DNA from: Deltaproteobacteria bacterium
Lineage (GTDB): Bacteria; Desulfobacterota; DSM-4660; Desulfatiglandales; HGW-15
NCBI GenBank assembly: GCA_016931115.1
Contig: JAFGFM010000034.1
Span: forward strand, 1 to 34,415
DNA: 34,415 bases
Reading direction: 5' to 3'
In this document: positions 25,397-27,986 of the stretch, piece by piece
Layout of the letters: the number at the start of each line of letters is the position of its first letter
Numbering within the stretch: the first letter of the stretch is position 1
The notes under the pieces: model-generated
What the model saw: the letters and a program-made list of their open reading frames with translations, nothing else
Told to the model about the DNA's origin: nothing
Databases searched by the model: none
Program-made: the position numbers and the translations under genes

Positions 25397-26302
25397 TTAT
25401 AATAAAATATCATCTAATGCTTGATTTATTTCCTGGAACTTAAAGCTGTAGCCCTCATTCAAAAGCCTCTTTGGAATAACCCTCTGCCCTTTCAATAAGG
25501 TATCAGCAAAATCGCCCATAACCAGTTTGAGCATAACCCCTGGCACAGGAGGCATAATGAGAGGTTTTTTCATTATTGAAGCAATAGCCCTTGTCAATTC
25601 CCTGTTTGTTACAGGGTTTGGTGCCGTACAGTTATATATGCCGCTCAAGCCTCTGTTTTCTATCTGATAGATAAAAATATTAACAAGGTCATAGAGGTGT
25701 ATCCACGAAAAATATTGTCTCCCATTACCGAGCTGGCTTCCAAGCCAGTATCTGAAAAGAGGCAGCATCATATGGATTGCACCTCCGCCCTTGCCAAGCA
25801 CAATACCAAACCGGTTTAATATTACCCTTGCCACATAGGATAGCGCTTTCAGGGCAACCATCTCCCATTCCTTTGAGAGGGATGAAAGAAAGTCATTGCC
25901 CGGTGCAGCATTTTCATCCAGCAACTCGTCATCGTGAAAACCGTAATAACCCACAGCAGAGGCACTTATAAGTAACAAGTCTGACTTTTTATGCCTGGCA
26001 ATCTCTTCGACTATATTTCGGGTCGTATCAATACGGCTTTTAATAAGGGTTTCTTTATATGCCGGTGTCCATCGTTTGAATATGGAGGCCCCTGCCAGAT
26101 TAATAACCACATCACATTCCATGAGCTTCTCAAGCCATGGACCTTTTATGGCAGGATCACCATCAACATGGGTGATATTATTATCATGCGCCGGATTTTT
26201 TGATGAACGGGTTAATACGTACACCCTGTGCCCTTTACCTGAAAGGGCGACTGAAAGCGGTTTACCTATAAAACCTGTGCCACCGGTTATAAAGATATTC
26301 AT
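25397..26302 (-). CDS. TIGR01777-family NAD-dependent epimerase-like protein
   Basis: An SDR of the YfcH/SulA type. GGTGFIG at 7-13 binds the nucleotide, and VINLAGASIFKRWT (~69-82), ISASAVGYYG (~111-120) and the C-terminal VPGVMLKLVMGDFAD and PKRLLNEGYSFKF stretches (DUF1731-type) are typical. The length of 301 aa is normal. The cellular function of this family is poorly defined. It begins 18 nt after the speD-like gene, so it is probably co-transcribed with the polyamine genes, an association without obvious biochemical reason. It converges with the oxidoreductase gene, whose stop is 11 nt away. Confidence 0.88.
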   Translation of the reverse strand: MNIFITGGTGFIGKPLSVALSGKGHRVYVLTRSSKNPAHDNNITHVDGDPAIKGPWLEKLMECDVVINLAGASIFKRWTPAYKETLIKSRIDTTRNIVEEIARHKKSDLLLISASAVGYYGFHDDELLDENAAPGNDFLSSLSKEWEMVALKALSYVARVILNRFGIVLGKGGGAIHMMLPLFRYWLGSQLGNGRQYFSWIHLYDLVNIFIYQIENRGLSGIYNCTAPNPVTNRELTRAIASIMKKPLIMPPVPGVMLKLVMGDFADTLLKGQRVIPKRLLNEGYSFKFQEINQALDDILL

Positions 26303-26320: not shown

Positions 26321-26725
26321 CTACTTTCTGATAATAAAACTGGAACGGACAGTACTGGCGCCAAAATATTTTTTTGAGAAATTCTCAACTTGCTCTATGT
26401 CAAACTCTTTACATGAAAAGATATTGAGATAGGCAGCCCTGTATTCTTTTGAAAAATGCCCTGTCACTGAACCCTCTTCAGAAAACTGAATAATCGATAA
26501 AAGCCTGCTGCTCTCAATACCTTCACCGGAACATGAGGATATTGGTTCACCGGAGGGTTTCATGCCTGATGCATCAAACAGTCTACCTGGAAAACTTCTT
26601 ATCAAACCTGTATCGGATATGGTATCAATGTCGCAACCATACAGGTCAAGCACCAGCTCACGACCGAAAATAACAGGGGATAAAGGCACCCTGTTTTTCT
26701 TATTTTTAACTGCGGTTAATGTCAT
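26321..26725 (-). CDS. divergent SpeD-like (AdoMet decarboxylase-related) protein
   Basis: A 134-aa protein that aligns with class 1b AdoMet decarboxylase over its whole length: FGRELVLDLYGCD at 20-32 corresponds to the family start, and EYRAAYLNIFSC at 94-105 corresponds to the strand carrying the catalytic cysteine. The self-processing motif ESHLSIHTWPE of the true SpeD encoded nearby is absent. In an ungapped alignment, the residues equivalent to the T. maritima Ser55, His68 and Cys83 are Ser77, His90 and Cys105, while the pyruvoyl-forming serine (Ser63) becomes Gly85. A gapped alignment could place Ser82 there instead. Its ATG overlaps the speE stop by 4 nt. It may be an inactive partner or regulator of SpeD, or an enzyme with another substrate. 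I found no further evidence to choose. Confidence 0.7.
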   Translation of the reverse strand: MTLTAVKNKKNRVPLSPVIFGRELVLDLYGCDIDTISDTGLIRSFPGRLFDASGMKPSGEPISSCSGEGIESSRLLSIIQFSEEGSVTGHFSKEYRAAYLNIFSCKEFDIEQVENFSKKYFGASTVRSSFIIRK

Positions 26726-27576
26726 ATAAGGCGTTCATTTAAAAAACCCGGGACATAAAAGGCCCCGATGTGTACCCCGGGGTTATAATATCTGGTTTTT
26801 ATTTTAGATGCGGATGATTTTTGCTCAAGTGAATTTAGGCTTGTTTTACAAGGATCGATTTTATCGGAACAGAACATCGCAGAGAAAAAGCCGCCAACAT
26901 AGGTTGGTATGGCAAATACATAAGGTCTTACAATCTGAAAAATATCTTTTAAAAGGATATATGACGCCCTCTGCTCATCAGGCTGCATATGAATGGAACC
27001 GGTCTGACATACCATTATGCCATCTGGAGAGAGAAGATCGTGGATACCCCCGTAAAACTCCTTTGAGAAAAGGACTGTTGCAGGGCCGATCGGATCAGAG
27101 GAGTCAACTATAATAACATCATATTTTACATCGGTCTCTTTCACAAACCTTGCGCCATCAGTTACTACAAGATCTGCCCTTATATCATCAAATGCCCCAT
27201 TACTTATCGTAGGCAAAAACTCTTTGCAGATATTGATCACAGCAGGGTCTATCTCAACGATTGTTGCCTTCTTTACATGCCTGTGCCTTAAGACCTCCCT
27301 CAATATACCGCCGTCTCCCCCTCCTATTACAAGTACCTTTTCAGGATTCGGGTGAGACAGCAGAGGTATATGAGACATCATCTCGTGATATATAAATTCA
27401 TCTTTTTCAGTTGCCTGAACAACCCCGTCCAAGAGGAGCATCCTGCCATACAGGCTGGATTCCACCACCTTCATGTGCTGGAATTCGGAACTGTTTTCGT
27501 AGAGAATGGACTCTATCCTGTAATGGGTTTCAATATCCTTCCATCTTTCAATTACCCATTGGTGATCCTGGGTCAT
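26722..27576 (-). CDS. speE: spermidine synthase
   Basis: Transfers the aminopropyl group of decarboxylated AdoMet to putrescine or a related amine. The nucleotide-binding GGGDGG is at 85-90, the acidic VEID at 107-110, and the catalytic DSSDPIGPA begins at Asp158 with Asp161. YHEMMSHIPL (63-72) is the conserved substrate-side motif. The length of 284 aa is normal. The gene overlaps speD by 4 nt upstream and the speD-like gene by 4 nt downstream, so all three are translationally coupled. Acceptor preference (putrescine, agmatine or cadaverine) cannot be read with confidence. Confidence 0.95.
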   Translation of the reverse strand: MTQDHQWVIERWKDIETHYRIESILYENSSEFQHMKVVESSLYGRMLLLDGVVQATEKDEFIYHEMMSHIPLLSHPNPEKVLVIGGGDGGILREVLRHRHVKKATIVEIDPAVINICKEFLPTISNGAFDDIRADLVVTDGARFVKETDVKYDVIIVDSSDPIGPATVLFSKEFYGGIHDLLSPDGIMVCQTGSIHMQPDEQRASYILLKDIFQIVRPYVFAIPTYVGGFFSAMFCSDKIDPCKTSLNSLEQKSSASKIKTRYYNPGVHIGAFYVPGFLNERLI

Positions 27577-27986
27577 GATGCGATAATTCCCCTCCTGATC
27601 TCCTGTACATCGATCCTGAAAGGCTTGAATTCTTTTTCAAAAACAGGGATCGCAAGATGAGGATTCAGTGTCCCGCATACAAACAGATCAAGTGCCGCGT
27701 AATCATATTCCGGCCATGTATGGATACTTAAATGAGATTCCTGAAGGATAGCTACACCGGATATTCCGCCATTGGGAGTAAAGACATGAAGGTCAATACC
27801 GAGCATAGTTGCACCACAGGTATTGATCGCTTTAATAAAGATTTCCCGGATCCGGCTGGAATCATCCAGGAAATGCTTTGTCCAGAGTTCAATAAGCAGA
27901 TGAACCCCGGTATATTTCACGTCACCGTCCTGGCAGCAAAATTCTCTTGCATATAAATAATCTTTGTTTAATGTTATATTTTTCAT
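27573..27986 (-). CDS. speD: S-adenosylmethionine decarboxylase proenzyme
   Basis: Pyruvoyl enzyme that makes the aminopropyl donor for spermidine. The self-cleavage motif ESHLSIHTWPE is at 83-93, so cleavage should fall between Glu83 and Ser84. Ser76, His89 and Cys104 match the processing and catalytic residues of the class 1b enzyme from T. maritima. Conserved family sequence begins only at about residue 27 (GVHLLIELW). The ATG at 27986 has the nearest AGGAG 15 nt away, which is far; that site suits an out-of-frame ATG at 27996 much better. An in-frame GTG at 27920 (residue 23) would give a 115-aa protein of more usual length. The true start is therefore uncertain. Confidence 0.93.
   Translation of the reverse strand: MKNITLNKDYLYAREFCCQDGDVKYTGVHLLIELWTKHFLDDSSRIREIFIKAINTCGATMLGIDLHVFTPNGGISGVAILQESHLSIHTWPEYDYAALDLFVCGTLNPHLAIPVFEKEFKPFRIDVQEIRRGIIAS

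Follow-up and report, generated by a model that had tools for sequence, protein, structure and literature searches.

A speE-coupled protein of the SpeDC lineage that lacks the pyruvoyl-forming serine, a candidate non-catalytic partner of SpeD

SpeDC proteins are pyruvoyl-dependent ornithine decarboxylases that evolved from the S-adenosylmethionine (AdoMet) decarboxylase SpeD and that carry diagnostic Gln, Thr, Phe and Tyr residues (Li et al. 2023, PMC10407285). Degraded SpeDC domains also occur fused to SpeD, as in Victivallis vadensis and Desulfobacter latus, and SpeD activity persists in a bacterial fusion of this kind; in eukaryotic AdoMetDC, likewise a fused pair, one of the two halves is dead (PMC10407285). 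In trypanosomes, a dead paralogue, prozyme, raises AdoMetDC activity about 1000-fold (PMC5201418). Here we describe a SpeDC-like protein without the pyruvoyl serine that is encoded in a polyamine operon within a window of 34,415 nucleotides (the whole stretch of DNA that was analysed) from a deltaproteobacterial genome. An earlier note on this DNA held that a bacterial pair of SpeD and an inactive partner would be new. This claim needs narrowing: the family is known and a dead SpeDC fused to SpeD has already been described (PMC10407285), and what is new is the free-standing, operon-encoded form, without the serine and in a genome that also codes for a PLP-dependent decarboxylase.

The gene is the third of a coupled polyamine set, laid out as follows.

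27573..27986, minus strand: speD, canonical class 1b AdoMet decarboxylase with ESHLSIHTWPE (TIGR03330, 122 bits, cut-off 75.65)
26722..27576, minus strand: speE, spermidine synthase (TIGR00417, 327.9 bits, cut-off 249.55)
26321..26725, minus strand: predicted SpeDC-lineage AdoMet_dc-fold protein, 134 aa, with Gly85 and without pyruvoyl serine; Ser86, Ser77, Gln80, Glu83, His90, Phe91, Tyr99 and Cys105 kept
26459..26479, minus strand: codons of Glu83-Glu84-Gly85-Ser86-Val87-Thr88-Gly89 (GAA GAG GGT TCA GTG ACA GGG), the remodelled processing loop; ancestral form Glu-Thr-Ser-Ser-Ile-Thr/Leu-Gly
25397..26302, minus strand: NAD-dependent epimerase-like gene, downstream (PF01370 and DUF1731)

The SpeDC-like reading frame starts with ATG and is joined to speE, which it directly follows, by the 4-base ATGA overlap that the earlier note had described and that the coordinates bear out; speE in turn shares 4 bases with speD. 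The epimerase-like gene begins 18 bases past the SpeDC-like stop and is possibly co-transcribed with it, and it shows no sign of a polyamine role. No known RNA or riboswitch was found around the operon at gathering score. A terminator-like hairpin followed by T6 (26748-26768, minus strand) lies within the last part of speE, shortly ahead of the SpeDC-like start; it was rejected as a terminator, such sites occurring at chance number and the hairpin not being kept in the one sampled congener (G001).

Profile searches place the product in the Pfam AdoMet_dc family (PF02675, 48.5 bits against a cut-off of 25, E 1.2e-12, residues 24-133), whereas the SpeD equivalog TIGR03330 fails with 19.1 bits against a cut-off of 75.65 and the ESHLSIH-type motif is absent, in agreement with the earlier reading of a gene that aligns with AdoMet decarboxylase but lacks ESHLSIHTWPE. 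Homologues retrieved from public genomes, in which QLIETSSITGHF...AYINIFSCKEFD or a close variant is found, match SpeDC proteins. In the tree, which has few columns and many weak forks, the window protein groups with that of the congener (support for the pair 100). Next to this pair, within the SpeDC set, stands the operonic SpeDC of G006, a genome that belongs to the family of the window genome, shares its speD-speE-speDC order and has ETSS intact. By motif and tree the gene is assigned to the SpeDC (ornithine decarboxylase) branch, and a recent duplicate of SpeD is ruled out as its origin. The suggestion of an inactive paralogue kept in a polyamine operon thus stands as to the loss of the serine, the SpeD fold, the coupling to speE and the ongoing selection described below, but not as to descent from a SpeD duplicate, and a changed substrate, another option raised before, holds for the ancestors of the gene, the SpeDC ornithine decarboxylases. 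Compared with described SpeDC proteins (PMC10407285), the window protein is alike in fold, family, clustering with speD and speE and the gene order of many SpeDC operons, and it keeps three of the four diagnostic residues (Gln80, Phe91 and Tyr99); it differs in having Gly for the pyruvoyl serine and Glu for the diagnostic Thr (position 84), and in the loss of Phe66, Gly75 and Ile82.

In an ungapped BLASTP alignment with the SpeD of the window, Gly85 lies opposite the pyruvoyl Ser84, and Ser77, Glu84, His90 and Cys105 pair with the Ser, Glu, His and Cys of that enzyme, all as first read. The gapped alternative, by which Ser82 would serve as the pyruvoyl residue, fell away, since ungapped alignment with the nearest homologues puts an invariant Ile at 82 and an invariant Ser at 85. 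Gly85 is also no sequencing error, as the congener protein, 85% identical, has the same SEEGSVTGH. The search for homologues covered 61 relatives, 395 genomes of the phylum and 285 genomes of the phylum of L034 (an Omnitrophota record), together with one scan each of a genome collection and of IMG/VR. The pyruvoyl-forming serine (S63 of Thermotoga maritima) is present in 223 of the 225 distinct homologues obtained and is replaced by Gly only in the window genome (G000) and G001, in a sample drawn by similarity to mostly Ser-bearing members from which strongly degraded ones, such as C-terminal fusion domains, may be missing; within it, the Gly85 form appears restricted to the genus. His90 and Cys105, the equivalents of His68 and Cys83, are invariant in all 225. 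Among 143 GHF-type SpeDC proteins, 22 columns are nearly invariant; seven of these are changed in the window genus (53, 66, 75, 82, 84, 85 and 87), all of them within 53-87, up to and including the processing site. Without a serine at 85, no pyruvoyl group would form at the usual place and the protein would stay an uncleaved chain; that it is catalytically dead we infer from the loss of the serine only.

An AlphaFold2 model of the window protein (pLDDT 89.8) finds its best PDB matches, by Foldseek, in T. maritima AdoMetDC (1tlu/1vr7, TM 0.84/0.82 by target length, E 1e-8 for the match with TM 0.84), and the matches also include the non-processing S63A mutant of that enzyme (1tmi). The SpeD three-dimensional fold, on which the earlier note had made its proposal depend, is thus predicted with high confidence. 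The likeness to the class 1b SpeD of T. maritima extends from the predicted fold (TM ~0.8) to the active-site His and Cys, whereas Ser63 is lacking, the motif is of SpeDC and not of SpeD type, and identity is ~23%.

The speD-speE-speDC order, a common one among SpeDC genes with the serine intact, is found in more than 20 loci, mostly Omnitrophota records or genomes reached via the Omnitrophota search, and suggests that the whole operon has been transferred. Adjoining or overlapping genes in this order are seen in L036, L037, L038 and L229-L253, as well as in G006 and the window genus. A survey of neighbouring genomes, proposed in the earlier note, returns a recurrent arrangement, including in G006 and in the congener, and the gene, whose absence from close relatives would have counted against the proposal, is present there. 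The GenBank phage and plasmid collections, searched with the window protein, yielded no relatives.

Elsewhere in the window genome and in its congener is coded a 387-aa PLP-dependent decarboxylase of alanine-racemase fold (96% identical between the two, dN/dS 0.04). It keeps the AVKxN, HVGS, EPGR and GPTCD motifs, and its best relatives of solved structure are lysine/ornithine and ornithine decarboxylases; judged by its sequence, it would be an ornithine (or ornithine/lysine) decarboxylase able to make putrescine. No close copy was found in the other 59 of the 61 relatives, where the next best have 38-40% identity and belong to another family of the order. Neither the window genome nor the congener has a member of the OKR_DC, arginase/agmatinase or PvlArgDC families. 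The PLP enzyme is therefore confined, in this sample, to exactly the Gly85 lineage, in which putrescine could be made without SpeDC. The window host differs in this respect from the SpeDC hosts described before, whose genomes were without canonical ADC/ODC (PMC10407285). The serine was lost once and the PLP enzyme gained once, so that their association makes a consistent story, unreplicated, and not a statistical test.

On the stem that precedes the congener split, the SpeDC-like gene accumulated 0.95 changes per site, compared with 0.21 on the branch to G006, a rate about 4.5 times higher; the same branches give 0.24 against 0.35 in speE and 0.31 against 0.10 in speD. Derived changes at conserved sites number 21 in the window lineage and 4 in its sister (p 0.0009). 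The corresponding counts in SpeD, 7 and 1, do not differ significantly (p 0.07), and co-evolution of SpeD and the SpeDC-like protein is for this reason not claimed. After the fast stem the gene is under purifying selection, its dN/dS between window and congener being 0.23-0.31 by two methods, where speE, speD and the epimerase-like gene give 0.12-0.19 (speE 0.19). A burst of change followed by constraint is the mark of a changed role; decay alone is unlikely to bring constraint back. Differences between the congeners fall at 3 of 40 positions in core strands and at 17 of 94 outside them, which is suggestive only (p 0.18).

The reading that we prefer, with a probability of roughly 0.5, is that SpeDC was made redundant by the PLP enzyme, lost cofactor formation and was kept as a non-catalytic protein, most likely as a partner of SpeD. 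The ancestor would have had an active pyruvoyl ornithine decarboxylase (SpeDC) as the third gene of a speD-speE-speDC operon that led to putrescine and spermidine. In the ancestor of the genus, putrescine supply would have passed to the PLP-dependent ornithine (or ornithine/lysine) decarboxylase, whose gene lies elsewhere. SpeDC would then have changed rapidly and lost several pocket residues along with the pyruvoyl serine (Ser to Gly85), leaving the conserved and presumably non-self-processing SpeD-fold protein of today. Its present job would be to pair, without catalysis, with the SpeD of the operon, in the manner of the dead member of SpeD/degraded-SpeDC fusions, of eukaryotic AdoMetDC and of the trypanosome AdoMetDC/prozyme pair, and to set the stability or activity of that enzyme; this partnership is judged the best fit for a free-standing, putatively dead SpeDC that would be co-expressed with SpeD and SpeE. 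Class 1b SpeD forms dimers. Counting against a dead partner, Ser77, Glu83, His90 and Cys105, which should matter for processing and catalysis, have all survived the fast stem, as one would expect if the enzyme is still processed; and in a sample of two genomes slow decay may be compatible with the data as well.

The strongest competitor, in our estimate an unlikely one, is that the cofactor has moved, self-cleavage now taking place between Gly85 and Ser86 and the pyruvoyl group forming one residue further on, in a decarboxylase whose substrate may be the old one or a new one. Other pyruvoyl enzymes, namely aspartate decarboxylase and phosphatidylserine decarboxylase, are cleaved at a Gly-Ser bond, and both congeners have kept Ser86, His90, Cys105, Ser77 and Glu83. 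Yet all 223 other homologues share a single register, with Ser five residues ahead of His, and Ser86 is no newly arisen residue but the ancestral neighbour of the lost serine. Residue 85 moreover begins a strand in the AlphaFold2 model, where a shift by one residue would be expected to flip the side chain to the other face, and a PLP decarboxylase probably capable of supplying putrescine is present. To our knowledge no AdoMetDC-fold enzyme has a displaced pyruvoyl site, and if cleavage at Gly85-Ser86 does occur, the window protein would be the first, as far as we know.

We give slightly less credence to the view that the gene is a passing relic, a redundant SpeDC heading for loss that is still in frame at the operon end but functionless. 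The disappearance of the serine and several pocket residues from a lineage with a PLP decarboxylase, together with the fast stem, agrees with it; what speaks against it is the behaviour of the gene since the congeners parted. At a synonymous distance of ~0.34, a third calculation gives a dN/dS of 0.25 with a bootstrap range of 0.14-0.44, the distance between the window protein and that of G001 (0.17) is similar to that of speE (0.20), and the processing loop SEEGSVTGHF is identical in both. The least probable alternative is a sensor, in which an uncleaved SpeDC would bind ornithine or putrescine and regulate SpeD, SpeE or the operon, for although Gln80, Glu83, His90, Phe91 and Cys105 of the catalytic pocket are kept, other conserved positions (53, 66, 75, 82 and 84) are changed, the ligand is purely conjectural and we know of no small-molecule sensor precedent in the SpeDC family.

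Returning to the partnership with SpeD, we propose more tentatively that the locus encodes a bacterial prozyme-like pair, composed of SpeD and, as a protein of its own encoded two genes downstream, an uncleaved subunit derived from SpeDC, and that this pair may be the unfused counterpart of the SpeD/dead-SpeDC fusions thought to be the source of eukaryotic AdoMetDC. As in those fusions (PMC10407285), a SpeDC-derived unit without processing residues is kept with an active SpeD, but the dead unit is fused there, whereas the window protein is separate and coded on the other side of speE. With the trypanosomatid prozyme (PMC5201418, PMC6221367) it has in common that a separate, presumably non-processing AdoMetDC paralogue stands beside an active AdoMetDC; prozyme, however, is of class 2 (eukaryotic), has an independent origin and is a proven activator, while the window protein is a candidate one. 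Should the protein indeed be an uncleaved SpeD partner, it would represent, in free-standing form, the step by which the two-domain eukaryotic AdoMetDC has been proposed to have arisen, and the prozyme strategy of trypanosomes would have been invented independently a second time.

SpeDC genes were also met in other settings. G006 has, at L102:2533-6701, a second SpeDC (LIETSLISAHF type) together with a GNAT-type transferase, an ATP-grasp protein and a LysA-like PLP decarboxylase, and a PLP decarboxylase lies ~3 kb from SpeDC on contig 96 of G003 and on contig 549 of G016; these sets look like one conserved cluster, which may make a conjugated amine. In G148 (L292:3187-4334), a SpeDC with an intact ETSSVTGHF overlaps a PAPS-reductase-like gene amid phage-like genes without known family, and is possibly prophage-borne. 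No loss of the pyruvoyl serine was seen among the viral SpeDC-like proteins read from IMG/VR (L168-L226), where 59 viral contigs encode SpeDC-like or related proteins; in a few of these (L181, L208 and L209) a second AdoMet_dc gene adjoins the SpeDC-like gene.
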